From assembly GCF_005116675.2 (NCBI RefSeq), contig NZ_CP050699.1:2937001-3001000 (forward strand): a stretch of 64,000 nucleotides of DNA. The letters are read 5' to 3'. The position numbers and the translations under genes were made by a program. The notes under the pieces were generated by a model. It saw only the letters and a program-made list of their open reading frames with translations, did not search any database and was not told the origin of the DNA. Below are positions 13,125 through 30,022 of the stretch, piece after piece. Position 1 is the first letter of the stretch. Each line of letters opens with the position of its first letter. Source of the stretch: Desulfosediminicola ganghwensis (GTDB lineage: Bacteria > Desulfobacterota > Desulfobulbia > Desulfobulbales > Desulfocapsaceae).

Positions 13125-14585
13125 TTACTCAGTGGTCCTGACGGTCGCAGTGACCAACTCTTGACCGGTGACATCAAATGGAGTATCAGCCGCTTCTTCA
13201 TTTTCCCTTTTCCAGACAAATTTACCGGTAGCTGCATATAAAACAGCCAGGATGGGGCAAATGAGGGAGAAAAATGCATAGGGGGCATAATCCAAAGTTG
13301 CAACACCTAAGGTTGCAGCCGTGAAAATCGCATCGTTGCCCCACGGTACGAGAAAAGCGAAAAGGGTCCCGCTGTCTTCCAGGGTACGGGAAAGAACGTT
13401 CCCTTTTATATTCATCCGCCTGTAAGCGGGCTCAAAAGTTTCACCTGGCAGGACAATTGAAACATATTGGCTGGCGGAAAAGAGGTTTGTTGCCAGACAT
13501 GCGCCGATTGTAGCAACAATGAGCCTGAAACTGCTGTTGATAGAGTTGCTGATGGCTGTAAGCAGAGCCTTGAGGATACCTGATCGCTGAATTATTTCGC
13601 CAAATGCCAGAACAATAAGGGCAACAGTTACAATCCAGGCCATACTGCCAAGTCCGCCTCTATTGAGTAATTTGGCAGCATCAGCATTGCCGTAGTCGTA
13701 ACTGACACCTTTAAACAAAGCAAGAACAGCTTCCTTGGCTGTAAATGCGTCCTGAAAAATCATTCCTGCAACTACACCGAGAATCGAGCCGATCATGATA
13801 CTCAGAATAGGTGGAACTTTTTTTATGATTAAGAGAATAGTTGCAGCTGGGATCAGAAGCAGAAAAGGGCTGATCATGAATACAGAATCTATGGCAGCCA
13901 TCAGTTCCTGAGTCTTGGCTGGACTGGCTCCCTGGCTATCTCCGAAATTCATGCCGATTACGGCAAAGATAATTAAAGATATTACGATTGCCGGACCACC
14001 AGTGAATAACATAGAGTAGATGTGACTGAATAGAGTGGTTTTAGCGGTGGCTGCCGCCAGATTAGTCGTATCCGAAAATGGTGACATTTTATCCCCGAAA
14101 AGCGCACCGGATACGACCATTCCAGCAGCTATGGGCAAAGGTACTCCGAGTCCTTCCGCCACACCGATGAGGGCAACGCCCATTGTTGCGATGCAGCCAT
14201 AGGATGTTCCGGTAAAGTATGAGGTGAGACAGCAGAGGATAAGACCCGTTGTGAGATATAATGATGGGGTGAGGAGGTCCAACCCGTAATAAATGATCGA
14301 TGGTATGACGCCACCAATTATCCAGCCGCCGATAACACAACCCACCGCCATTAAAACACCAACAGTGAATGCGGCTTTTTTGAATCCGTCAAGGAGGTAG
14401 CCTTCAATTTCCTTGAGGGTGTTGCCAAGAAAATATGTTACTACAGATAGATAGACAATACACAATACCAAGGTTCCCCGGGTAGGTAATTTCAAAACCT
14501 GGAGGCATGTTGCGAGGATGATGACGAGACCTATCATTGCGAGAAACGCAGAGACAGGTTTTACTGACTTTTCATATGATGACAT
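13125..14585 (-). CDS. NhaC-family Na+/H+ antiporter or sodium-coupled exchanger
   Basis: A 486-residue inner-membrane protein with about 11-12 hydrophobic segments. NhaC-family signatures include GTSYGCIATMGVALIG, GALFGDKMSPFSDTTNLAA (DxxSPxSDT type) and NLFSASQYVSIVLPGETF. Classical NhaC exchanges Na+ for H+; some relatives exchange organic acids such as malate for lactate. It is the third gene of an operon with a racemase-like and a saccharopine-dehydrogenase-like gene, so a role in uptake or efflux of the metabolite they handle is possible. It starts 26 bases after the preceding gene. Confidence 0.88.
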   Translation of the reverse strand: MSSYEKSVKPVSAFLAMIGLVIILATCLQVLKLPTRGTLVLCIVYLSVVTYFLGNTLKEIEGYLLDGFKKAAFTVGVLMAVGCVIGGWIIGGVIPSIIYYGLDLLTPSLYLTTGLILCCLTSYFTGTSYGCIATMGVALIGVAEGLGVPLPIAAGMVVSGALFGDKMSPFSDTTNLAAATAKTTLFSHIYSMLFTGGPAIVISLIIFAVIGMNFGDSQGASPAKTQELMAAIDSVFMISPFLLLIPAATILLIIKKVPPILSIMIGSILGVVAGMIFQDAFTAKEAVLALFKGVSYDYGNADAAKLLNRGGLGSMAWIVTVALIVLAFGEIIQRSGILKALLTAISNSINSSFRLIVATIGACLATNLFSASQYVSIVLPGETFEPAYRRMNIKGNVLSRTLEDSGTLFAFLVPWGNDAIFTAATLGVATLDYAPYAFFSLICPILAVLYAATGKFVWKRENEEAADTPFDVTGQELVTATVRTTE

Positions 14586-14611
14586 AGCTCTACTCCTTTC
14601 TTTTTTTGAAA

Positions 14612-15322
14612 TTAAGTGGAAAATGAATCATGAATCAATGAAACCATCGTCGATAGGTCATACACCTGCAGACCGACAGCTTTTCGAACTGCATTCGCAA
14701 AAGGTGGGAGATCCGTACATTCCAATAAGATTGCTCCCGCGTCCGGATGGTCCTCTTTTGCAGTAACAGCAAGTGAAACGATTTCCTTTTCCACTTTTTC
14801 TATTGAAAGAGGCTGGTCAGGAGAACGACTGATCTTGCTCCATTCCGGCATCTCGTCCATACCATAGATTTCAATTCCACGCATATCTGCGACTCCGATT
14901 GCCTGGAAATGTTCCTGTTTTAGGTCCTTCTTTGAGGCGGTGATAACCAGTATTTTTCTTCCGCCGAGCGAAATGCGGATAAACGGTATCTGCATCAGGG
15001 CTGAAGTGAAGACAGGAACTTTGAGAACAGCAGCCAGTTCTTGCTGAAAAATTGCGTTAAATCCGCAACTTGTAATAATTGATTTCACTCCTTGCTCTAT
15101 CATGGTTTCTGCAGCTTCCACCATGGGACCGATGAGAGCCGTATCGGGGGAAACCAGGACCGACTGGTAGTTTGCTCCCTTTACTCTCTTAAAAAGAACT
15201 GGGAAGGAGTAGGTCAACGGATTGGTGCTGTTGCCAGGAAGGCTTTCCAGCTGCTCCAGTCCTTTCGGATTACTTCCCCCTTCCCAGCAAAGAACTCCGA
15301 GAAAAGGTTTTTGGGAGTTCAT
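14612..15322 (-). CDS. Aspartate/glutamate racemase-family protein
   Basis: A 236-residue protein of the cofactor-independent Asp/Glu/hydantoin racemase superfamily. The two cysteine-centred catalytic segments are IITSCGFNAIFQ (residues about 78-89) and ILLECTDLPPFANA near the C-terminus. The N-terminal GVLCWEGGSNPKGLEQL is not seen in standard MurI or RacX, so the substrate is open; maleate isomerase-like or hydantoin racemase-like chemistry is possible. It sits in a three-gene minus-strand operon between a saccharopine-dehydrogenase-like gene and an NhaC transporter. Confidence 0.78.
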   Translation of the reverse strand: MNSQKPFLGVLCWEGGSNPKGLEQLESLPGNSTNPLTYSFPVLFKRVKGANYQSVLVSPDTALIGPMVEAAETMIEQGVKSIITSCGFNAIFQQELAAVLKVPVFTSALMQIPFIRISLGGRKILVITASKKDLKQEHFQAIGVADMRGIEIYGMDEMPEWSKISRSPDQPLSIEKVEKEIVSLAVTAKEDHPDAGAILLECTDLPPFANAVRKAVGLQVYDLSTMVSLIHDSFST

Positions 15323-15394
15323 TTATCTATATCCTCCAAAATGTATAGGTTGAATGGCTATCATACGTCATGAGATAACGTACCCATAAGCCAA

Positions 15395-16624
15395 TCAGGG
15401 GTTGAGTTGTCCGTCCCAATCGTTCACAGTTTTTGTAAATTTAATTCCCCGTTTGTCCAACTCGCTAAAGTAGTGGTCGAGGGGAACCTCCATCGGCATC
15501 GTTCTTCCAGACTTCTCTAATTTTCCATCCAGAATCATCATGGAACCGATGGCCATTGGGAACCCGACGGTTTGTTGCATTGCGGAGAATCCGGATTCAT
15601 GATCATGTAAAACGATGGATTGCATCAGAACCTGTTTAGGGGAGCCATCAATCAACCCTCTGCCGTCGACACGCAGGAGAGCAACATCGCTTTCATCATT
15701 TTGATAGTAAAACTGTTGTTGGTTACCTAAGAGAGCGGCGCAAAATTCGTCTGGCTTAACTTGCTGGTCGCCAACCTGGATTGATTCGCTGCTCAGAAAG
15801 CCGCAACGAGCCATTCTTTCCCAGAATGCACCGTGCCCAGGCCAGCGGCAAATGTAGCGCCCCATACTCTTAACAGTTTTTCCTATCCCAAAATGGTCTA
15901 CGTACTGTGTGGAGTTGCCGTTATAGAAACACTCAAGTGTGTCGCCTAAACCCGGGAGATCAAGGTTGTGGGTATTCTTTGGCGAGAACATGGCATCGGC
16001 TTCAATTTCGCAAATTTGATTGTTATCGAGGTACCGTGCAGGACGAAGGTGGGAACGAATCACTCCAATAACAGACCAGGTAAATTTGTACCGTAACGGG
16101 TTGTTTGCCGATTGCAATTCCGGAAAGCCTGCCCCGTAGGAATGGAGGGCATGAACTTCATCGAACGAGTTTACTATCATTTGGCCCATAGCAAGGTCTA
16201 CTCCAGGGTCCATACCGAATTCTTCCAGGATTATAAGGCCTTCTTGCCGGGCTTTTTGGTCAAGACTGTCCAGTCGTTCTGCAAATCCTGGCTGATTTGC
16301 GTAAGCCGGATTATTGATATAGCTTGAAGTTATGGCATGACAACCGCATTCAATGGCAAGCTCAACCATCGGAAGTGTCAAGTGGGGAGGGAAAAATTCT
16401 ATAACCAGTGAGGCGGGGGAGAGGAGTTCACGGATTTTTCCCAGATCTTTACCGTCGATCTGGTACCCTCGAACCCTGCTGTCATCAATTGCGCTGAGAT
16501 CATCAAGAAATCCCTCGTAACAGTCGACAACACTCAGTTCGTTGAAATCACCGTATTTGATAAGATCATATACGCAGGCTTTTCCCTGCATTCCATAGCC
16601 TAGAAGAACAATTTTTCGTTCCAT
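15395..16624 (-). CDS. Saccharopine dehydrogenase-like oxidoreductase
   Basis: A 409-residue NAD(P)-dependent enzyme with the saccharopine dehydrogenase layout: an N-terminal Rossmann fold with GYGMQGKACVYDL, the conserved CHAITSSYINNPAY, then GMDPGVDLAMGQMI at the domain switch. Related enzymes make or break C-N bonds between an amino acid and an oxo-acid. As first gene of an operon with a racemase-like protein and an ion-coupled transporter, divergent from a GntR regulator, it probably belongs to a catabolic or osmolyte pathway for one amino acid. Product identity is not visible in the sequence. Confidence 0.82.
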   Translation of the reverse strand: MERKIVLLGYGMQGKACVYDLIKYGDFNELSVVDCYEGFLDDLSAIDDSRVRGYQIDGKDLGKIRELLSPASLVIEFFPPHLTLPMVELAIECGCHAITSSYINNPAYANQPGFAERLDSLDQKARQEGLIILEEFGMDPGVDLAMGQMIVNSFDEVHALHSYGAGFPELQSANNPLRYKFTWSVIGVIRSHLRPARYLDNNQICEIEADAMFSPKNTHNLDLPGLGDTLECFYNGNSTQYVDHFGIGKTVKSMGRYICRWPGHGAFWERMARCGFLSSESIQVGDQQVKPDEFCAALLGNQQQFYYQNDESDVALLRVDGRGLIDGSPKQVLMQSIVLHDHESGFSAMQQTVGFPMAIGSMMILDGKLEKSGRTMPMEVPLDHYFSELDKRGIKFTKTVNDWDGQLNP

Positions 16625-16706
16625 TGTTTAAGACTCCTTCAGGTTGAAACCATATACGAAAAACATATTTACACGGAAATTCAGTTGCGTTTAGTAGCGT
16701 CTGGAC

Positions 16707-16732: not shown

Positions 16733-16937
16733 ATGAATGCAAGAGAAAAAACATTTTTGAATGGATGATTTTTGAAATTGCTCGTATAGAGGGTGTAAGT
16801 ATATGAGATTACGAGCGTGATTTATTAGTGACGAACTCTTCTGGAAAGATTTGATTTGATATCAGGAGAGGAAATCTGTAAGTATCTGTTTTACATTCAG
16901 CTTTCTTCCTAAAATCAAAGAAGCACACACAGGTAAT

Positions 16938-17603
16938 ATGGTTAGCACGAACAGCAAGACAAGCAGTGAGGATCTGGCGTATGCTGAAATCCTCAGACTC
17001 ATCTATGAACGCAAGTTTGTTCCAGGAGATTTTCTCCAGGAAGAATATCTCTCCCGTACCCTTGGCATGAGCAGGACTCCAATCAATCGGGCCCTGTCAC
17101 GAATGAATGTTGAGGGAATCCTTGAACGGAAAAAGAAGAAAGGCTGTTATATCCCGGTGGTTCCCTTAAATGAGGGACGGAAGCTGTTTAGTCTCAGGGC
17201 GATGATCGAGGGGCAGGTGGCCTGGGAGGCTGCTCATGTCTGTCCTGCGGAGAATCTGGAAAAATTGTATGCAATTAACCAGAAAGACAGACAGGCACTG
17301 GATGAGAAAGATGATGCCACATACTACTTGGCAAATCGTGATTTCCATTTCTTGCTTGCAGAGTCTGCTAATAACCGATATCTGGAGCGTGTCTGCAAGC
17401 AGCTGTTTCATCAGGCTTCAATATACATTTTTTTCTATGACTCGTTTTATACATCTCCAAAGGAGAGTATTTTCCACACGCCGGAACAACATGAAGCCAT
17501 TCTTTGTTGTATTAGAGAGAGGGATGCTGAAGGGGCTAAGGTTGCAATGCAAGAGCATATCATCCACACGATGAAAATGTTTGATATTCAAAACAGCCGC
17601 TAG
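16938..17603 (+). CDS. GntR-family transcriptional regulator (FCD type)
   Basis: A 221-residue regulator with an N-terminal winged helix (FLQEEYLSRTLGMSRTPINR, then a wing KKKGCYIP) and a helical ligand-binding FCD domain with the usual metal-ligand pattern (NRDFHFLLAESANN, HEAILCCIRERD, MQEHI). Such proteins bind small organic or amino acids. It is transcribed away from the operon at 13125-16624 and most probably controls it, with the palindrome at 16707 as candidate site. Confidence 0.9.
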   Translation: MVSTNSKTSSEDLAYAEILRLIYERKFVPGDFLQEEYLSRTLGMSRTPINRALSRMNVEGILERKKKKGCYIPVVPLNEGRKLFSLRAMIEGQVAWEAAHVCPAENLEKLYAINQKDRQALDEKDDATYYLANRDFHFLLAESANNRYLERVCKQLFHQASIYIFFYDSFYTSPKESIFHTPEQHEAILCCIRERDAEGAKVAMQEHIIHTMKMFDIQNSR

Positions 17604-17790
17604 TGTTTTGTCGATTTTTGAGGCTGGATTAAGCAGGCAGGTAAAGATGCTGAATTTATTTACATCGTTACCCAAAATTGCTGCGGCCCCAAAAAGGAGC
17701 ATAATCAAGGAAGCATGAACCAGTGATTGGCAGAGGCAAGGCTATGGAACTTCACCAATCTCTAATATTGATGTATCTACTGTTGCTCCA

Positions 17791-17818
17791 AACGGGCGAG
17801 GACCGCTACTCGCCCGTT
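17791..17818. terminator. Strong hairpin between gntR and the recombinase remnant
   Basis: AACGGGCGAG (17791-17800) pairs perfectly with CTCGCCCGTT (17809-17818). There is no T-run on either strand, so it may be a weak bidirectional terminator or a structural site belonging to the recombinase unit that ends ten bases away. Confidence 0.4.
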
Positions 17819-17827
17819 GAGGCATAC

Positions 17828-18665
17828 CTATCCATAAAGTGTTTCGATCCACCTGATCGCTTCCGTGTCATTCACCTTCCCGAGATACCGCTGAGTAGTT
17901 GAAAGATCAGTATGCCGCAGGATTACCTTGCTGACAATTTCTATAGGAGTTCCCGATCTTGAGGCATACGTTGCTGCATGGCGTCGAAGATCATGTGGTC
18001 GCAGTTCTATGTTGACCATCTTGCCAGCCTTTTTAACCATCGACCAGGCGGTGACATAGGAAATGGGAAATATACGGTCATTGCTCTCTATATCCATGGC
18101 ATTTGCATAAGCTGTTAACCTTACCAAGATTTTCCGTGGAACATAAACCGTCTCGCCAACTCGACCACTTTTGGGATTTTGGATAGTCAGATTTCTCTCT
18201 TGGATGTCCGCTGGTGTGAGATTCAAAACCTCGCCTACTCTCATCCCACCCCTGGCCATCAATTCAAGTATGAGTCTATTCCGAACGCTTGTAGTCCTGA
18301 AGATGATCTCATCAACCGTCTCCTTGTCTATGATATTCCATTGTACCGCCTGCGGTCGTCTAAAGATCTTCCTGATGACTGAACTATTGCAGGGGTTAGT
18401 GAGGGCAGGAAATCCGGTATTAATACTGAAGTTATAAAAGGATGCTAAAACGGAGTACCGGTTTCGCTTGGTTGCTTGGCGATTGTTCTTGGTAAGTGAA
18501 AGGAGAAAATCAAGAACCTCTTCCTGGGAGATGCTGGCGAGATCACGTTGACCAAATTGCGAAGAAAATCTGTGGAGAACGAATTCACATGTCTTTATGG
18601 TATTTTTTTTTCGAGTTGGCTCTGTGGTACTGCAGATGGAAATCTACCGCTTGGGAAACTTTCAT
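17828..18665 (-). pseudogene. Tyrosine recombinase, full length but frameshifted in a 9-A run
   Basis: Read on the minus strand from the ATG at 18665, the N-terminal core-binding domain begins MKVSQAVDFHLQYHRANSKK and then meets a run of nine A (T run at 18603-18611), after which the frame stops within a few codons. Dropping one A restores an open frame through to 17828 (about 278 residues). That frame has the catalytic set R in GGMRVGEVL, HDLRRHAA and LRHTDLSTTQRYL. Only the last 144 codons are open without correction. Either it is a pseudogene, the A-run permits transcriptional slippage, or the base call is wrong. A XerC/D-like or island integrase is the likely original function. Confidence 0.8.
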
Positions 18666-19115
18666 GGTGCGCCTCCTGTGGTTGGGGTTGCATGAGCGAT
18701 CTGCTCACACTGTAGTATACAACACCATGATGGGGATAGGTCCTCGGGAGACGCTACAGACTCAGGAAACATCTTTAGCGAGAAAGGCCGGAAACTGACG
18801 ACGGCTGCCAGTGGTAAGGTCCTGCTTCGGGCTGCACGATACTGTCGTGTAACCTTGCATAGCACCTGACAACATACCAAGAACAGCCCATTGCATAGGT
18901 AACTAATATCACATTTAAATCTATCTGCTTGAACGGCACGTCTGTTTGCTGTCAATTCGGCAGCAGAGCCTGATGGATGCTTCCGAACCAGAAAGCGTAT
19001 CACCCGTTATTAAGACGAAACCTGATTACCCGACATTGATAGGCTTTTTGAATGCCTATATGACTGATTCTACATCACCAGATCTCAGGGCCATGTCGGG
19101 TAACCACCGTACTCT
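18666..19115. other. Intergenic region without recognisable gene
   Basis: 450 bases between the frameshifted recombinase and the outer-membrane gene. Short open frames are present on both strands but none has a credible start, codon use or family. No tRNA gene that could have served as an integration site was seen. Confidence 0.4.
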
Positions 19116-20141: not shown

Positions 20142-20535
20142 GAACCCCCTAAAAAATGATGATACTCAATTACTCTTTTGGTCAGCTTTCCCCAAACTGA
20201 CATTCCCAAAAAGAACCACTGTATACAAACAGTCAATATCTAACAATTATTAATCGTTATTACAATGACTTAAATGGTCAACGTGTAGAGGGTATATATT
20301 GAAAGTGTAGAGATATAGGTATCTTCATCGTCTCTCAATATTTTTCCCTGCCCCTCGTTGTTTCCCGCGCTATTTTGAGCTTCGCTGACGATCGATTCTA
20401 CTTTCAAATCAGTCATGAGATGTGGGTTGAGATTGCCAACATAAAACACGTCATCGGTCAATCATGTCCATGTATGAGATGTCTACTGTTAATCTTTTAA
20501 AAGATCGGCAGCCAAGTTTGATTGACATCTGAGGC

Positions 20536-20651
20536 TAGGAGTCTGTCGGACTGACCACTTTAAGGCTCTGAGAATCGCATAATTCGATATCAGAGTCCAA
20601 TAGGAGTCCACGGATTAAAGTAGAAAAAGGCTAAAGTCCGACAGCCTCCTA
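20536..20651. repeat. Copy 2 of the dispersed palindromic repeat, 116-base compound form
   Basis: AGGAGTCTGTCGGACT (20537-20552) is mirrored by AGTCCGACAGCCTCCT (20635-20650) with one mismatch. Further inverted segments lie inside (CACTTTAA/TTAAAGTAG and CTCTGA/TCAGAG). This is a MITE- or REP-like folded element in the 900-base gap before pflB. The rest of 20142-20910 holds nothing I recognise. Confidence 0.65.
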
Positions 20652-20917
20652 GGAAGAGTCTGCTCGAATCCAGCTTTGTATCTTATTTCTGATGAAATGC
20701 ATAATCCTTGGGCGTTAAAAAGGGTCAGAGTTAAATGAAACAAGATGACCGCTTGATATCACTCTGATACTTTTAGTGCATAGCATTAACTGTGTCTGCT
20801 ATGTTCCCGTTGTTGTGTCAAAAAAAATGCTAATTCATTTCCGGGCGAACAAATGACTTCCTGCTTGACAATGAAATTGAGCTTGTTTACACTAGCCCAC
20901 CTACAACAAATGAATAA

Positions 20918-21016
20918 AACAATCACATGACTGGCGGAAGTGGATAACCACATGGGAGTGTGATTGAAGATATGCCGACCGCCTGGGCAACAGTCCAGGC
21001 GGTTTTGTGTTTTTTT
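20918..21016 (+). ncRNA. ZTP riboswitch (pfl motif) with intrinsic terminator
   Basis: The pattern matches the pfl/ZTP aptamer. P1 pairs AATCACA (20921-20927) with TGTGATT (20959-20965). The conserved GACTGGCGG (20929-20937) precedes a GTGG/CCAC hairpin and GGGAG, then a linker and the conserved CCGCCTGGGCA (20979-20989). GGCGG at 20933-20937 can form the family's pseudoknot with CCGCC. The same CCGCCTGG alternatively pairs with CCAGGCGG (20995-21002) and is followed by a T-rich run: a terminator that ligand binding would prevent. The ZTP/ZMP signal reports folate shortage. It lies just before pflB, which makes formate for one-carbon metabolism. Confidence 0.92.
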
Positions 21017-21048
21017 GCCGGACTGTAAACCATTGGAATTGAAGAATT

Positions 21049-23271
21049 ATGAACAATTCATGGAATGGTTTTGTGCCGGGAATTTGGCAGGAAACCGTAG
21101 ACGTCCGCTCATTTATCCAGCTCAATTATTCCCCATATTCGGGGGATAGTTCCTTTCTCGATTCAGCCACCGAGCAATCTGAGAAACTTTGGGGCCAGTG
21201 CCAGGCTCTTCTCAAAAAAGAACTGCAGCAGGGTGTTCTTGATATCGATACAACACGCATTTCGGGAATAGACAATTTTGAACCGGGGTACATCGATGCA
21301 GAGAATGAACTCATTGTCGGTCTGCAGACCGATGCACCGCTCAAGCGAATACTCAACCCCTTTGGTGGGATGCGTATGGCAGCAGGGGCCTGTGAGGCTT
21401 ATGGCTATACTCCTTCCAAAGAAATTTCCTCAATTTTTCAGTATAGAAAGACCCATAATGAGGCCGTTTTTGCGGCCTATACCCCAGCTATGCGACGGGC
21501 CAGAAGTGCCGGTCTGCTGACGGGTTTGCCTGATGCCTACGGGCGAGGCAGGATTATTGGGGATTATCGCCGGGTACCGCTCTATGGCACGGATTTTCTG
21601 ATTGCCGAGAAAAAGCGTGATCTGGATAATCACGAAGGCCCAATGGATGGCTCCAGGGTGGTAGAACGCGAAGAACTCTCCACGCAGATTAGTGCCTTAA
21701 AGGAACTGGCACAGATGGCCGCTCGATATGATTGCGATATCACCAGGCCGGCGTCTACTGCGAAAGAGGCGGTGCAGTGGCTCTATTTGGCCTATCTTGC
21801 AGCCGTGAAGGAGAATAACGGCGCGGCAATGTCCCTGGGGCGTGTGAGTACTTTTCTGGATATCTATATTGAAAGGGACCTCAAAGCCGGTCTGATTACC
21901 GAAACCTTTGCCCAGGAACTCATCGATCAGCTTGTCATGAAGCTGCGGTTGGTTCGCCATTTACGAACACCGGAGTATAACCAGCTTTTCGCAGGAGATC
22001 CAAACTGGATAACCGAGGCAATCGGCGGCATGGGAAATGATGGCCGCACTCTGGTAACCAAAACATCCTACCGGTTTCTGCACACTCTGGATACTTTGGG
22101 CCCCAGCCCGGAACCGAATATGACCGTCTTGTGGTCAAAACATCTGCCTGCGGAGTTCAAGCAATATTGTTCGGAACTCTCTATCCGCACGGACGCACTG
22201 CAGTATGAAAGCGATGAACTGATGCGGCCACTTTATGGTGATGATTACGCTATCGCATGTTGTGTCTCAGGGATGACGATCGGTAAAAACATGCAATTTT
22301 TCGGTGCTCGCTGCAACCTGGTAAAGGTGCTGCTTTACGCCATAAATGGTGGTGTTGATGAGGTGAGCGGCAAAAAGGTGGTCGAGGGGCTGGAACCCAT
22401 CGAAGGTGACTCTCTCGATTTTGAGACGGTATGGGGCAAGCTTTGCCTCTCCATTGAAAAGATTGCAGAGCTCTATGTTGATACCATGAACATCATCCAC
22501 ACCATGCATGACCGGTATGCCTATGAAGCAAGTCAGATGGCACTGCATGACACCAAAGTCGACAGGCTGATGGCATTTGGCGTTGCCGGATTGTCCATTG
22601 TCGCAGATTCCCTGAGTGCCATGAAGTATGGCAAGGTGAAGGTTATACGGGAGGGCTCGCTTGCCAAAGGGTATGAGGTAAGCGGTGAGTTCCCGTTTTT
22701 TGGCAACGACGACGATCGGGTTGACGATCTGGCTGTCAAGCTGGTGGAAAAAATGTCGGCAGCGTTAAAGAAGCGGCCTGCCTATCGCGGCGCAAAACAT
22801 ACCCTTTCCGTTCTCACCATTACTTCAAATCTGGTCTATGGCAAGATAACAGGTGCTACGCCGGACGGCAGAAAGGCAGGAGAGCCTTTTGCCCCGGGTG
22901 CCAACTCCATGCATGGCAGGGAACTGAACGGTTCGCTGGCCTCTCTCAATTCTGTGGCAAAACTTCCCTATACCGACGTGTGTGAGGATGGCATCTCCAA
23001 CACCTTTACCATTGTACCGCAGACACTGGGCAAAGATTTGCAGGCCAGAAAAGCGCATCTTACCGCCATTCTTGACGGCTATTTCGAGCAGGGTGGACAT
23101 CATATCAATGTCAATGTGCTGGACAGGGATACGCTGAAAAAGGCCATGGACAACCCCGATGAGTACCCGAATCTGACAATACGGGTTTCAGGGTATGCGG
23201 TGCATTTTAACCGGTTGACCCGGGAACAGCAGCTTGAAGTGCTGCAGAGAACCTTTCATACAGCAATGTGA
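21049..23271 (+). CDS. pflB: Pyruvate formate-lyase (glycyl radical enzyme)
   Basis: Converts pyruvate and CoA to acetyl-CoA and formate under anoxic conditions. The 740-residue product has the PFL active-site cysteine pair (Cys404-Cys405 in [18 protein letters not shown]) and the radical glycine at residue 715 in [14 protein letters not shown]. The adjacent-cysteine CCV motif distinguishes true PFL from glycerol dehydratase or choline lyase relatives. It is controlled by the ZTP riboswitch directly upstream and followed four bases later by its activase gene. Linking PFL to ZTP suggests its main job here is to supply formate for purine and folate one-carbon metabolism. Confidence 0.95.
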
Positions 23272-23275
23272 CCCC

Positions 23276-23977
23276 ATGCACGGCTACATTCATTCCATAG
23301 AGACCATGGCGCTCCATGACGGGCCGGGAATTCGCTTTGCGGTGTTTTTCCAGGGGTGCGGCTTGCGTTGCATCTATTGCCATAATCCGGATACCTGGCA
23401 GTTCAGCAAAGAGAACACGGTCTCGGCCGAGGATCTGTATGCGAAAACCCTTCGCTACAGATCCTACATGGAAAATTCCTCTGGCGGGGTGACCTGCACT
23501 GGCGGGGAGCCATTGATGCAGCCTGAATTTTTATTGAAGTATCTTCGTCTTTGCCGGGATGGAGGGTTGCATACTGCCATAGATACTTCAGGCGTGGGGC
23601 TTGGCGCTTATGAAGAGATTTTGGAAGTGACGGATCTGGTGCTGCTTGATGTGAAGGCAGTCTCAGCCGACGGCTTTCAGCAGCTCACAGGAGTTCCAAT
23701 GGCCAAGGCCGAACCTTTTTACAGGGCTCTTGCCAATAGCGGGACCTCAGTAAGAATACGGCATGTGCTCGTACCGGGTGTAAATGACAGTGATGAGAAT
23801 ATTGAAAAGCTGCAAAAGTTTATCCAAAGGTTCCCAGCTGTGGAGCAGGTGGAGCTTCTTGCATATCACACCTTGGGTGTTTCCAAGTACGAGCATATGA
23901 AACGTCCCTATCCTTTTGAGGGTGTCGAGCCGTTATCGAAAGAAAGACTGAAGTACTTCCAGTCCTTTTTTGATTAA
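23276..23977 (+). CDS. pflA: Pyruvate formate-lyase activating enzyme (radical SAM)
   Basis: Uses a [4Fe-4S] cluster and SAM to install the glycyl radical on PflB. From the ATG at 23276 the protein is 233 residues. The radical SAM motif is Cys28-x3-Cys32-x2-Cys35 in GCGLRCIYCHNPDTW, preceded by the PFL-activase signature HDGPGIRFAVFFQG, followed by SGGVTCTGGEPLMQ for SAM binding. The frame is open further upstream inside pflB, but the ATG four bases after the pflB stop gives the standard family N-terminus. Confidence 0.95.
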   Translation: MHGYIHSIETMALHDGPGIRFAVFFQGCGLRCIYCHNPDTWQFSKENTVSAEDLYAKTLRYRSYMENSSGGVTCTGGEPLMQPEFLLKYLRLCRDGGLHTAIDTSGVGLGAYEEILEVTDLVLLDVKAVSADGFQQLTGVPMAKAEPFYRALANSGTSVRIRHVLVPGVNDSDENIEKLQKFIQRFPAVEQVELLAYHTLGVSKYEHMKRPYPFEGVEPLSKERLKYFQSFFD

Positions 23978-24122
23978 ATAATGAGGATTCGGGTGGGGCT
24001 GTATGGTGGCTCATAAGACATTTAAGCAAAATCTCAAAAGCACTGTGAAGTTGGCAGAAAAAGAAGATTGAGCAAGTTTTTGTCGTGGTATTTTGGGTTT
24101 GATCAAAAATGCAAACATGTGT

Positions 24123-24167
24123 AAGGGATGAGCTGACCGAGGGCACCTCATCCCTTAACTGCTTTTT
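24123..24167 (+). terminator. Rho-independent terminator of the pflBA unit
   Basis: AAGGGATGAG (24123-24132) pairs perfectly with CTCATCCCTT (24147-24156), followed within six bases by TTTTT. It separates pflA from the convergent dehydrogenase gene. Confidence 0.75.
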
Positions 24168-24204
24168 AGTTCGGAATCATAAAAAGTATCACAAGAGTCA
24201 ACGG

Positions 24205-25845: not shown

Positions 25846-26080
25846 TACTGCTTGCCTCCGTGGAAAGGTGTGCTCGCCGTTCGATGACGACAGGGAAGGT
25901 GGATTTAATGATTGTATGCATATGATGGATGCAACATTTTGATACAACTTGCATCTTTGGTTAGAGATAGTCAAACTCTGGATGAAAACTTCCTAGGAAT
26001 AACCATAAATACCTAACATTTTTGGTGGAAAGATGGGGGCTATGCCGGGGTGAGAATAGGGGACGTGCCACGGTTTCCGC

Positions 26081-26262
26081 TCTGATCGCCTGCAAGTCAG
26101 AAATCGACTTTCCGGCAGTAGAGGCGGTGTGACGCAAGCTTTACCCCTATGCCTAGATTGATTTTCACCGTTTCCTTAAAAGCTGGAGTCCCGGCTACTG
26201 GAAATTGAACACATACAGTGAACGAATTGCCCGGGATGTCGTTCGATTGTTGAATTGAAAAG
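26081..26262 (+). pseudogene. Fragment of a second CHK-type kinase gene
   Basis: About 180 bases are clearly homologous to the last 60 codons of the kinase gene at 7142-8125 (compare 26086-26260 with 7961-8125: GCAAG.CAGAAATCGACTTTC, GGCAGTAGAGGCGG and GGAAATTGAACAC are shared). The copy has in-frame stops (a TGA near 26131) and no upstream part. It is a decayed, truncated duplicate. From 25846 to 26080 nothing else was recognised. Confidence 0.85.
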
Positions 26263-26414
26263 GCGACGGGTCGTGTGCTTCTGTTTTATAAGAACAATTA
26301 CCCTGAGTATCGAAAATATAATATGTTCAGGAATAAGCTGAACATAGCAATTCTATTTTTGGCTCGGACTTGCCAGTGAACATCTTGGCCCTGCCAACAG
26401 GTTCAGACAAGGTC

Positions 26415-26464
26415 CAAGATAGTTGGGAAGTGTCCTGTTTGTAGAATCAATCGTGGTCTACCCC
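26415..26464. repeat. 50-base exact repeat, copy A
   Basis: The 50 bases from CAAGATAGTTGGG to GGTCTACCCC are identical to 34946-34995. In both places they end at a junction with mobile-element-like DNA: here the next bases GAATGGCGCTAA match the end of the IS4-type element at 50495. In one frame they would encode a CPVC motif, but no complete gene contains them. Confidence 0.7.
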
Positions 26465-26749
26465 GAATGGCGCTAACTTCATGTTCTCCTGGTTCTGCAG
26501 CACAGTTTCTTCATCACTCAGGGTCAACTTGTGCTTGATGATCATGGCACCTATCACCAGTCGCGCATCCTTGCCTGGTCGACCACTCTTGGGATCCATC
26601 GTTTGGTAGTAGCATCTGGCCAGGTCATCCCAAGGGATGATCCGGCTCCATTTCACCCATCGATTCTCCGGATTCAACTTGCCGCCAAAGGGCAGAATGA
26701 AACCATCCAGACCGAGTTGTTTGCTGCTCGTATATCGGATCATGTGCAA
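26465..26749 (-). pseudogene. 5' fragment of an IS5/IS1182-like transposase
   Basis: About 90 codons match the N-terminal DUF772 domain of IS5/IS1182-type transposases (NRWVKWSRIIPWDDLARCYY, SGRPGKDARLVIGAMIIKHK, LTLSDEETVLQNQEN). The frame then runs into an IS4-like terminal sequence (GAATGGCGCTAACTTCA) and stops. The catalytic part is missing, so this is a remnant. From 26750 to 27157 I recognise nothing. Confidence 0.75.
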
Positions 26750-27157
26750 ACCTTATATGGAATATGTGGTTGTATTCCTGCACATTATATCCAGAAAATT
26801 ATTTTTTTTACTATCAATTACAGTTGGTTATCTTTTTCTGAGGAGAATCTAAATATTTCCAGCCCTGTAAGAAGAGGTATCTTGCAGCATACAGGGCCGG
26901 GTAGGATTAAAGGTTGGTCTTCTATATGTAAAGTTATCGATCAGCAACATGCTGCTCTGTCACCGATGACAACGAAATTATGAAAGTGAGCCCAGTGCCT
27001 GAATGCGTTTCCCAAGGGGCGGATGGCTGCGGCACAGCGTTTTCAGTCTGCCTTCACCGGAGCCATTCTGCTATCGGCGCTATAAAGCAGTCGTGTCACC
27101 TCGCGGATATCCATCTCGGCTGGCATCTGAATGACAGCTTATGTCCGACCTCAATGA

Positions 27158-27763
27158 TTAAAGAAATTCTACTTTTCCGGACATAAGATCGTAGTAGGCG
27201 GGTACGATTTTCACTGCTCCGTTTTGCACCAATTCTGCAACAATTGGTTCTGACTGGGCTATTTTTACTGAAATCTGTCTGGCCAGTTCTTTGGATGCGT
27301 TGTTCACCAAGTCTCCTTCGGCCTCTTTTATATTCTTGATGGCAGTCTGGATAGCAGGGCCGAGTGTGGCAATGTGACCCTCAAGGGCTACGCCGCTGGC
27401 AACTGCCGAAATTGCCCCACAGCTCGAATGCCCCATGACGACAACAACAGGGGTGTGCAGGTGCTTGACCGCATACTCTATAGATCCCAGGGAATGATCT
27501 CCGATCACATTGCCTGCAACCCGTACGACGAAAAGATCACCCAAGCCCTGGTCAAAGATATCCACAGGGGGGACACGGGAGTCGGCACAGGTGAGGACGG
27601 TTGCTATCGGCTCCTGGCCTGCAGCCAGACTCTTACGGCTTTCTTCACAGTGGTTTGGATGTTCAAGTTTACCGGATATAAAACGTTTGTTACCATCTTT
27701 GAGGATCTGGAGAACCTCTTCAGCGGTGGGGCGTCCTGATTGTTCTTTTGTCATTTTCTTCAT
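27158..27763 (-). CDS. Beta-class carbonic anhydrase
   Basis: Interconverts CO2 and bicarbonate. The 201-residue protein carries the zinc ligands of the beta class: Cys in VLTCADSRVPP (with the Asp-Arg pair), then His and Cys in VVMGHSSCGAISA. DLFVVRVAGNVIGDHSLGSIEYAV is also diagnostic. No signal peptide, so it is cytoplasmic. It lies about 100 bases from purE on the same strand; purE-type chemistry consumes bicarbonate when PurK is present, so the pairing may be functional, but this is inference. Confidence 0.94.
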   Translation of the reverse strand: MKKMTKEQSGRPTAEEVLQILKDGNKRFISGKLEHPNHCEESRKSLAAGQEPIATVLTCADSRVPPVDIFDQGLGDLFVVRVAGNVIGDHSLGSIEYAVKHLHTPVVVVMGHSSCGAISAVASGVALEGHIATLGPAIQTAIKNIKEAEGDLVNNASKELARQISVKIAQSEPIVAELVQNGAVKIVPAYYDLMSGKVEFL

Positions 27764-27867
27764 CGGTTTGAATATGGTTAATAAACGGTCTAAGCTGGAG
27801 ACTTGTTTCTATCCGCTCCCATACGCTACCATGTTGCCTGAGCAGCATGGTAAGGCAGCTAAGTACC

Positions 27868-28410
27868 CTATGATTTTGAAGGATCTTCCTGTGTTGCTAT
27901 TAGGTTGGAGGCCAGCAACTCCTGAGTCAGCTGTTCGGATTGCTTTTTGAGGGATCTCCGCGTGTTTTCCCTGAAATCCTCTAACCTTCCTTTTAATTCC
28001 GGATACTTAATCGAGAGGATGGAACATGCAAGATAGGCGCTGTTTTTGGCGCCGTCAACAGCTACTGTCGCCACAGGGATGCCTGGCGGCATCTGTACCG
28101 TTGAGTAGAGCGCGTCCTCACCATCCAAAGCTCCGGATGCCAGTGGCACACCGATTACGGGCAGGGTTGTATGGGCAGCGATGACACCGGCGAGATGGGC
28201 AGCCATGCCGGCACCGGCGATGATTACCTCGATACCGCGTCCTCTGGCGCTCCTCGCATATTCCGCTGTTTTATCGGGAAGGCGGTGAGCGGAGCTGATA
28301 TCCATTTCAAACGGAACCCCCATCTCCTTTAAGACTTCAGCGGCTTTTTTCATGACGGGCACGTCCGATCCGCTGCCCAAAACGATTCCAACAATTGGTT
28401 CTTCTTTCAT
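27868..28410 (-). CDS. purE: N5-carboxyaminoimidazole ribonucleotide mutase
   Basis: Class I PurE, which rearranges N5-CAIR to CAIR in purine synthesis. The 180-residue protein begins with VGIVLGSGSDVPVMKKAAE (the GSGSD loop), has the catalytic SAHRLP segment, and GAGMAAHLAGVIAAHTTLPVIGVP. A C-terminal extension of about 20 polar residues is not conserved in the family. purK was not found nearby. It connects to the ZTP-controlled pfl genes through purine one-carbon supply, though they are separate transcription units. Confidence 0.95.
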   Translation of the reverse strand: MKEEPIVGIVLGSGSDVPVMKKAAEVLKEMGVPFEMDISSAHRLPDKTAEYARSARGRGIEVIIAGAGMAAHLAGVIAAHTTLPVIGVPLASGALDGEDALYSTVQMPPGIPVATVAVDGAKNSAYLACSILSIKYPELKGRLEDFRENTRRSLKKQSEQLTQELLASNLIATQEDPSKS

Positions 28411-28639
28411 GGTTTATGGTCACTTATGATAATTTCGATGAATCGGTTGTAGTTGCGTACAACCTGTTAAGAGTGAGTCGTAGCAGATTACCCTCTACTT
28501 GATACAGGTTACCATTTCTCTCTACTGACATGAAACCTGGCAGGGAAAAAGCTTCGCCGGGGGGACCGGTTCCATTGAGGTTGCTCTTTCCTGCCAGGAG
28601 GGAGCTTGGAGTACGCATGCCAGAAAAAATCCATTATGC

Positions 28640-28930
28640 TTGCTGCATATGTTTGCCATGTATCAGAAAATGGGCTTTGATACTCATGGCATAGCCAACA
28701 GTTATGGCAGCCTGAATGCTCCGAATGCATTGACCGTAACAGATCCGAGATCGAGATACGCGAACTTGGAAACCATCGCCAGATACCCCTCAAGTAAAAG
28801 TCGAGAGCTCCGACACAGGGAATAATGCCGCAGGAGAAGCCCAGCGTATCCCATTCGGCCCGCGCCACCTTGGTGAAGATATCGAACGACACAAGCTGGC
28901 CGATGCATTCTATGTGAAAAATAAATCCCA
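28640..28930 (-). pseudogene. Remnant of an nhaD Na+/H+ antiporter gene
   Basis: On the minus strand, starting opposite nhaR, the frame encodes SFDIFTKVARAEWDTLGF and CGIIPCVGALDF, the NhaD hallmark VARAEWDTLLFFxGxxLCVGGLGF. Near 28795 the frame shifts to GYLAMVSKFAYLDLG, and near 28700 again to TVGYAMSIKAHFLIHGKHM, which matches the NhaD C-terminus. Most of the protein (N-terminal 60 percent and an internal part) is missing. It is a decayed target of the divergent regulator. Confidence 0.75.
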
Positions 28931-28997
28931 AACCGATTTCGGTCAAATAGATAAATGTGTTATCATAATTCGTAAAAACCGAACTGTTGAGGTCTAC

Positions 28998-29921
28998 ATG
29001 GAATGGCTAAATTATCATCATCTGTTTTACTACTGGACTGTTATGCGTGAGGGAAGCATAACTGCAGCCAGTGAAAAACTCCGTCTGGCGCAGTCCACAA
29101 TTAGCGCGCAGTTGGCAAAACTGGAAGAAAGCCTTGATGTCAAATTGACACAAAAAGTGGGGCGGAACCTGGAGCCTACAGATGCAGGACTGCTCGTTTT
29201 GAGATATGCAGATGAGATATTTCCACTGGGCCGGGAAATGATGGATTCGTTGAAAGGAGTCCCAGTCACTGGGCCATGGTCCTTAAGAGTTGGGGTCGTT
29301 GATGTGGTGCCAAAGCTTGTTGCCCAAAAGTTACTGGCGCCAATAAACAACTTGCCGGAAAAAGTCCGGTTGATCTGCCATGAAGGGAAAGACGAAAATC
29401 TTCTGGCCGAGCTGGCAATGCACAACCTTGATGTGGTCCTGACAGACACCCCCTTACGAACGGGGCTGAGCATTAAGGCCTACAATCACCTCTTGGGGGA
29501 GTGCGGTGTTTCTTTTTTGGGAACGCAAGAACTGGTAGAGCAACTACATGAGAAATTTCCATATTGCCTCAACAATGCCCCGATGCTGTTTCCCATGGCC
29601 ATGAGCACCTTGCGGGGGATTCTTGACCAATGGCTAGACAAAATGGAGATCCAGCCTCTCATAGTTGGGGAGTTTGACGACAGTGCCCTCCTGAAGGTTT
29701 TTGGTCAAGCAGGTGATGGGATTTTTGTTGCCCCGACAGTTATCGAGAAGGAGGTGGTTCAACAGTACCAAGTTAAGCTCATTGGTCGGACGCGTGATAT
29801 CAAAGAAAGATTTTATGCGATTTCAGTAGAACGAATTATCAAACATCCAGCAGTTGCAGCTATTTCGGAGGCTGCACAGCAAAAACTATTTTTTGATATC
29901 AAGCGAAAAAGAACAAAATGA
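28998..29921 (+). CDS. nhaR: NhaR-type LysR-family activator
   Basis: A 307-residue LysR regulator. The N-terminus MEWLNYHHLFYYWTVMREGS is the NhaR signature, followed by the winged helix LAQSTISAQLAKLEESL and a periplasmic-binding-type sensor domain. NhaR activates Na+/H+ antiporter genes in response to Na+ and pH. Its usual divergent partner here is only a broken nhaD, so it may now act on other antiporters. The ATG at 28998 gives the family start; the frame is open upstream to 28914, overlapping the nhaD remnant. Confidence 0.88.
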   Translation: MEWLNYHHLFYYWTVMREGSITAASEKLRLAQSTISAQLAKLEESLDVKLTQKVGRNLEPTDAGLLVLRYADEIFPLGREMMDSLKGVPVTGPWSLRVGVVDVVPKLVAQKLLAPINNLPEKVRLICHEGKDENLLAELAMHNLDVVLTDTPLRTGLSIKAYNHLLGECGVSFLGTQELVEQLHEKFPYCLNNAPMLFPMAMSTLRGILDQWLDKMEIQPLIVGEFDDSALLKVFGQAGDGIFVAPTVIEKEVVQQYQVKLIGRTRDIKERFYAISVERIIKHPAVAAISEAAQQKLFFDIKRKRTK

Positions 29922-30022
29922 TATTGGCAGGTCGACCCTCTCAAGAGAATCCGTTACGGATATAGGCTGCTCATCTCAGGTCTCCGCGTATCGACACAAT
30001 TGTCAGATGAGATCCGAGAGTG

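Follow-up and report, generated by a model that had tools for sequence, protein, structure and literature searches.

A ZTP riboswitch ahead of the pflB-pflA genes of Desulfosediminicola ganghwensis, probably of clostridial type and origin

The genome of Desulfosediminicola ganghwensis carries a pair of genes for pyruvate formate-lyase (PFL) and its activating enzyme, preceded by a structured leader RNA. Within the window (the whole stretch of 64,000 nucleotides that was analysed) the leader and the genes are composed of the following features:

20865-20893, + strand: promoter-like sequence TTGACA-17-TACACT, separated from the aptamer by 23 bases (consensus scan, 10/12 matches)
20917-20995, + strand: ZMP/ZTP riboswitch aptamer, or pfl motif (full RF01750 model, 1-86; score 68.4 bits, cut-off 39; E 5.5e-09)
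20920-20966, + strand: P1 helix, 20920-20928 with 20958-20966, around the P2 hairpin (minimum-energy fold)
20940-20943 with 20948-20951, + strand: P2 hairpin inside P1 (minimum-energy fold)
20933-20937, + strand: GGCGG, 5' half of the pseudoknot (sequence; 2/5 pairs with CCGCC covary among related aptamers)
20979-20983, + strand: CCGCC, 3' half of the pseudoknot, common to the terminator stem (sequence, terminator scan, alignment)
20977-21016, + strand: expression platform, an intrinsic terminator made of a stem-loop (20977-21004) and a T-rich tract (terminator scan, fold)
21049-23271, + strand: pflB, formate C-acetyltransferase, 740 aa (TIGR01255, 1120.2 bits against a cut-off of 994.2; PF02901, PF01228)
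23276-23977, + strand: pflA, PFL-activating radical SAM enzyme (TIGR02493, 279.4 bits against a cut-off of 231.75, in the translation from 23246; PF04055, in that from 23273)

The pflB gene lies directly downstream of the riboswitch on the same strand, with its start at 21049. Its translation was found by Pfam to contain PFL-like (PF02901) and glycine-radical (PF01228) domains, and it holds an adjacent cysteine pair (ACCVSGM) and a glycyl-radical motif (RVSGYAV), the two motifs that mark PFL. A different glycyl-radical enzyme, of the glycerol or choline type, was rejected, as the TIGR01255 cut-off was passed and the other listed models scored below theirs. The start of pflA is our choice, an ATG located 4 bases past the pflB stop.

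The RF01750 match was the sole gathering-level Rfam match in the 64-kb window (cmscan, Rfam 15); together with the score of 68.4 bits this rules out a chance match. The cmscan alignment contained two non-standard pairs. The initial annotation, made from the sequence, had placed a ZTP riboswitch in the pflB leader and named a covariance search with this model as a check. The claim is borne out by the covariance score (68.4 bits, threshold 39), the anatomy of the RNA, the comparative evidence and the gene context, and the full pfl-motif core that it described, with the pseudoknot partners GGCGG and CCGCC, is indeed present, the complete model being matched and both halves being found. It had also seen no such switch at purE (27868-28410, - strand), in agreement with the lack of a gathering-level ZTP match there in the cmscan of the window.

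For the comparative evidence we aligned 16 ZTP leaders and counted pairs for a structure of 15 pairs that we had named ourselves. Over the whole structure, standard pairing appeared in 99.2% of the cells, as compared to 33-43% when the partners were slid. Two-sided changes were seen at 7/15 pairs, a number reached by 8/500 shuffles, and at 5/7 of the pairs counted in the P1 helix; pair types beyond these numbered 16, an ordinary value that 180/500 shuffles reached. Since all 16 rows came via Rfam's model, pairing in the helices is biased towards that model. The pseudoknot lies outside the pairs of the cmscan structure line, and its changes are therefore more telling: 100% of its cells hold standard pairs, with two-sided changes at two of the five. 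By fold prediction, the 104-base leader is more stable than 200/200 shuffles (z = -4.28). The RNA upstream of pflB is a genuine, ordinary ZTP riboswitch, and adds one example of a well-studied switch.

Scanning 20142-21060 for terminators retrieved two sites, against a mean of 0.5 in shuffled sequences. The first, on the + strand, is a stem-loop of 12 pairs with a 4-base loop, followed by TTGTGTTTTT; the second, on the - strand, falls within an inverted-repeat element. The stem-loop (20977-21004) includes 20979-20983, so the earlier proposal that the terminator re-uses CCGCC holds. The spacing of about 30 bases to pflB that was given with it is right when counted from the end of the T-tract (32 bases); counted from the end of the stem, the distance to the ATG at 21049 is 44 bases. 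Predicted energies were -23.4 kcal/mol for 20976-21012 folded alone, -40.5 kcal/mol for aptamer plus terminator and -20.8 kcal/mol for the aptamer alone, for which the pseudoknot is left out. Because CCGCC is needed by both, aptamer and terminator would be mutually exclusive. Promoter-like sites are no rarer in shuffled sequences (1 found, fewer than the shuffle mean of 2.4), so that the position of the site at 20865-20893 alone speaks for it.

Our main reading, to which we assign a probability of about nine in ten, is that this RNA is a ZMP/ZTP-sensing transcriptional ON riboswitch that controls pflB-pflA; the binding of ZMP and the ON direction are assumed here by analogy with the riboswitch family. 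When 10-formyl-tetrahydrofolate runs short, AICAR transformylase would stall and ZMP (and ZTP) would accumulate. ZMP would then stabilise P3 and the GGCGG/CCGCC pseudoknot, so that the downstream CCAGGCGG strand could not take CCGCC and the terminator would fail; the terminator stem, if formed, would displace P3 and the pseudoknot. Failure of the terminator would lead to production of PFL and its activase, PFL would convert pyruvate to formate, and formate-tetrahydrofolate ligase could load this formate on folate, easing the shortage. For the ZTP family, stabilisation of the aptamer and pseudoknot by the ligand and the resulting hindrance of the terminator are described or predicted in the accessible parts of three papers (PMC7337938, PMC2864571, PMC10085676), the last of which deals with a ligand-hindered terminator in a clostridial pfl leader.

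The switch might instead be a vestige that came with the operon and is unresponsive in this host, with pfl constitutively off or on. Such a reading would be in line with its being the sole ZTP match in the genome, with its absence from three congeners and with the repeated and broken mobile-element pieces nearby. However, the aptamer spans the complete model, scores 68.4 bits and has two non-standard pairs, the terminator is intact, and pflB and pflA are open and above their cut-offs, and we give a vestige hardly any credence.

The functional switch of our main reading has close parallels among known systems. In its aptamer, pseudoknot, terminator overlap and position before pfl it resembles the RF01750 pfl motif of Weinberg et al. 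2010 (PMC2864571); compared with the accessible part of that paper, we found no difference in the RNA, and the host lineage alone is unusual. The arrangement is the one after which the "pfl motif" was named. In the pfl ZTP riboswitch of Clostridium beijerinckii, as presented in the accessible part of PMC10085676, a terminator strand likewise displaces P3 and the pseudoknot, and the ligand blocks this displacement, turning expression on. The host there is different, and the stem predicted in the window is free of bulges whereas the C. beijerinckii wild type has three wobbles and two bulges, a comparison made between unaligned sequences. The order of parts is also the same in the leaders of Maledivibacter halophilus (locus L015), a Clostridiales MAG (L023) and Peptoclostridium acidaminophilum (L184), with the attenuator also present in the first two; the PFLs of these three are about 66% identical to that of the window, and their phylum differs.

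We next consider the metabolic setting. The 5.65 Mb genome contains one ZTP riboswitch match, that at pflB. Further ZTP switches on FTHFS or PurH are thus ruled out, as FTHFS and both PurH halves sit elsewhere. Of two formate-using enzymes that were sought as possible routes from PFL formate to purine synthesis, only FTHFS was found: one FTHFS in the genome is above its cut-off, and no PurT is (best 51.9 bits against 502.15). The PurH profile is split over two unlinked genes, each below the cut-off of 528, which is set for the fused protein:

G000:C1:3885064-3885648: first half of PurH (profile positions 2-195, 279.9 bits)
G000:C1:5162903-5164060: AICAR-transformylase half of PurH (profile positions 203-511, 225.4 bits)

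Both dsrA and CdhC (acetyl-CoA pathway) were found above their cut-offs, which suggests a dissimilatory sulfite/sulfate reducer with an acetyl-CoA pathway. Since CdhC is encoded, PFL need not be the sole one-carbon source.

An anabolic use of the PFL formate, which the initial annotation had set against a fermentative role, is plausible and, in our judgement, likely, because it fits both published pfl cases and the gene content (FTHFS, no PurT). The idea is already in print for other bacteria. According to the accessible part of PMC2864571, pfl is among the five commonest genes under the ZTP motif, and its control is reported alongside that of purH, fhs, glyA and folD. In Thermoanaerobacterium saccharolyticum, pfl deletion strains grow poorly in defined medium but do better when given formate, serine or lipoic acid, and PFL was assigned to C1 supply (PMC4570089, accessible part). 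The role proposed there, C1 supply together with formate-tetrahydrofolate ligase, is the one proposed here; that organism is a fermenting bacterium, whereas the window genome has dsrA and CdhC.

It is also conceivable that the riboswitch is real and PFL is mainly dissimilatory, with ZMP merely tuning a catabolic gene, for example during pyruvate fermentation. The pair of pflB and pflA is the standard enzyme pair, other records annotate the protein with "fermentation", and no formate-using gene was identified beside the operon. The scanned flanking genes are a P5C dehydrogenase and one ORF with no Pfam match, and focA, which stands beside pflB in E. coli, is not among them. This absence, the published control of pfl together with purH, fhs, glyA and folD (PMC2864571, accessible part) and the assignment by gene deletion of a clostridium-class PFL to C1 supply (PMC4570089, accessible part) all argue against a mainly fermentative enzyme, which we consider unlikely.

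The distribution of the unit was assessed at three levels. The switch is present in one of four genomes of the genus, with the three congeners lacking it. In a sample of 193 genomes of the order, ZTP matches were found in two (with stricter filters, which lose weak matches) and a PFL above the TIGR01255 cut-off in one, the window pflB. The corresponding numbers for a sample of 395 genomes of the phylum were 25, including the window genome, and one, again the window pflB. When matches below the TIGR01255 cut-off are included, 54/193 order genomes and 126/395 phylum genomes have one; those listed mostly match only in part, in open frames of some 800 residues or longer, and were provisionally taken for other glycyl-radical enzymes. 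A phylum-wide unit of sensor and PFL is ruled out by the order and phylum samples.

In the second ZTP-bearing genome of the order (G121), the ZTP match stands directly before a PFL start (L147, contig C494), and its aptamer is 0.70 identical to that of the window. The contig has 4,984 bases and ends within the PFL, which for this reason could not pass the cut-off. It carries a transposase gene (DDE_Tnp_1) and another ORF that we take to be a transposase, and the assembly has an estimated contamination of 7%. This locus is possibly a contaminant or another transfer; given the short, transposase-bearing contig and the contamination of the assembly, it was not counted as independent proof. The phylum sample has another 44 ZTP matches, of which 29 were fetched as loci (L095-L123) with flanks of about 1500 bases either side at most. 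Within these flanks 0/29 have a PFL, and the aptamers of these loci are 0.59-0.69 identical to that of the window.

We searched for relatives of the window PFL by short peptide patterns in genome contigs, and used the best 80 of at least 575 confirmed relatives. These 80 are 63-67% identical to the window PFL and all belong to Bacillota or Mycoplasmatota; with 67% as the best identity among the matches listed, no near donor is known. A ZTP riboswitch was found upstream in 21/80 of these loci, 42-256 bases before the PFL match. Six of the 21 (L015, L018, L024, L027, L033 and L036) are rows of our model and match it by construction, and the same six independently passed Rfam, among 16 Bacillota loci given to it. 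The other 59/80 showed no ZTP match, with L014 and L063 having too little upstream DNA to judge. In all 21 ZTP-bearing leaders, a hairpin in or adjoining the CCGCC/CCGTC motif is followed by at least 4 T. Among the 51 aptamers compared, the one closest to the window aptamer is that of Maledivibacter halophilus (0.89), and the 20 most similar all come from the 80 nearest PFL loci listed. As a separate observation, a raiA RNA (RF03072) was seen at L013:2345-2546 and at L030:860-1076, in the pfl loci of two clostridia with no ZTP match there.

Two trees were built, both by quick searches with SH-aLRT support only. The first, which contained no outgroups, left the window PFL unplaced; on it the ZTP label was clustered, with 6 changes against a shuffled mean of 18.8 (0/500 shuffles as low). 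The second held the window PFL, 38 of the 80 loci, hand-picked to span the first tree with all 21 ZTP loci kept, and 10 further PFLs. It split a clostridial-type set of 40 rows, including the window, from outgroups with an SH-aLRT of 99, although these outgroups (E. coli, Azospirillum, Embleya, Bacteroides and Ilyobacter, and three that are likewise Bacillota, Subdoligranulum, Lachnospira and Ligilactobacillus) were not one side of a branch. The window PFL grouped with the Clostridiales MAG (L023) and Peptoclostridium acidaminophilum (L184) with an SH-aLRT of 98, both of these having a ZTP riboswitch upstream of pfl, and its branch was long (0.68, against a median of 0.23). A ZTP riboswitch also lies upstream in 3/10 of the further PFL stretches, those of Peptoclostridium, Ilyobacter (Fusobacteriota) and Subdoligranulum, so the ZTP-pfl arrangement is wider than the clostridial group.

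Judged from sequence comparison, a clostridial-type donor probably supplied the switch together with the operon, presumably as one piece; this foreign look of the unit had escaped the initial annotation. The third-position GC content of pflB (GC3 0.553) is not unusual against 30 window ORFs (mean 0.495, sd 0.071), and this unremarkable base composition leaves a recent transfer unsupported. The alternative, in which PFL and switch were ancestral to the phylum, were lost in nearly all its members and were not transferred, could account for the ZTP matches in 25/395 phylum genomes (window genome included). It is, however, hard to reconcile with a PFL above cut-off in 1/395 genomes, with none near the 29 fetched loci (of 44 further matches), with phylum aptamers only 0.59-0.69 identical to the window aptamer as compared to up to 0.89 for Bacillota loci, and with the nesting of the window PFL among clostridial PFLs. 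We regard such an ancestral unit as very unlikely.

The surroundings of the unit contain repeated sequences:

17777-18774: repeat with a phage-integrase-like fragment (PF00589); one copy (93%) lies at G000:C1:4967757-4968751, and congeners have many partial ones
20535-20652: MITE-like element of 118 bases whose 18-base ends form an inverted repeat (94%); it lies 264 bases ahead of the aptamer and has a copy (99%) at G000:C1:2292440-2292557
26078-26855: short stretches that recur in the window genome and in congeners

A small ORF at 26447-26749 has no Pfam match, and resembles the start of a transposase. None of the listed DNA matches to the three congeners (40 candidates scored per genome, of 54 to 81) covers 20653-24198 of the window. 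On the left, 13195-16675 and 16936-17585 are collinear in one congener (G195), and on the right, 27035-28519 and 28863-29969 are collinear in another (G194). No clean empty site was found, as the 19.9 kb stretches read from G194 and G195 each showed just one of the two flanks. The surroundings fit a region that gains genes, and do not identify a vehicle.

Taken as a whole, we somewhat favour a scenario in which a clostridial ZTP-pflB-pflA unit moved into an acetyl-CoA-pathway sulfate reducer whose kin lack both switch and enzyme, where it would serve as the only ZTP-type folate-stress sensor of the cell, with pyruvate as an emergency source of formate. Riboswitch and operon seemingly passed from one phylum to another as a unit that could work at once, because in most cells purine synthesis runs through ZMP. 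These results also suggest that a bacterium with dsrA and CdhC, which may have other C1 routes, can place its formate supply under the control of folate stress. The point that goes beyond an ordinary switch is this foreign-looking unit in a lineage otherwise without it in the samples searched. A literature search for ZTP riboswitches together with transfer, or for PFL, riboswitches and horizontal gene transfer in sulfate reducers, found no paper, most subscription papers being outside the search.

In other genomes of the phylum, ZTP riboswitches precede genes for reductant supply and also one-carbon genes. In the 29 loci L095-L123 (of 44 further phylum matches), the genes behind the riboswitch, named by eye from their translations, were 9 glyoxylate-type aminotransferases, 7 NADP isocitrate dehydrogenases (6 of them monomeric), 4 glyA, 3 rnfC, 2 FTHFS, and one each of a transhydrogenase-alpha-like gene, serA, kup and benE. 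NCBIfam searches on 10/29 loci gave best matches that agree with these names, 5/10 above cut-off (some are truncated where the locus stops). Among the 11 leaders of isocitrate dehydrogenase, RnfC and transhydrogenase genes, 10 were folded, and in 9/10 a hairpin covers CCGTC and stops at a T run; the fold of the L116 leader showed no such hairpin. No paper was found in a search of the same literature for the ZTP riboswitch together with isocitrate dehydrogenase. The sequences of these loci hint that ZMP may also control reductant supply in the phylum, and they may be a more interesting lead than the window switch.
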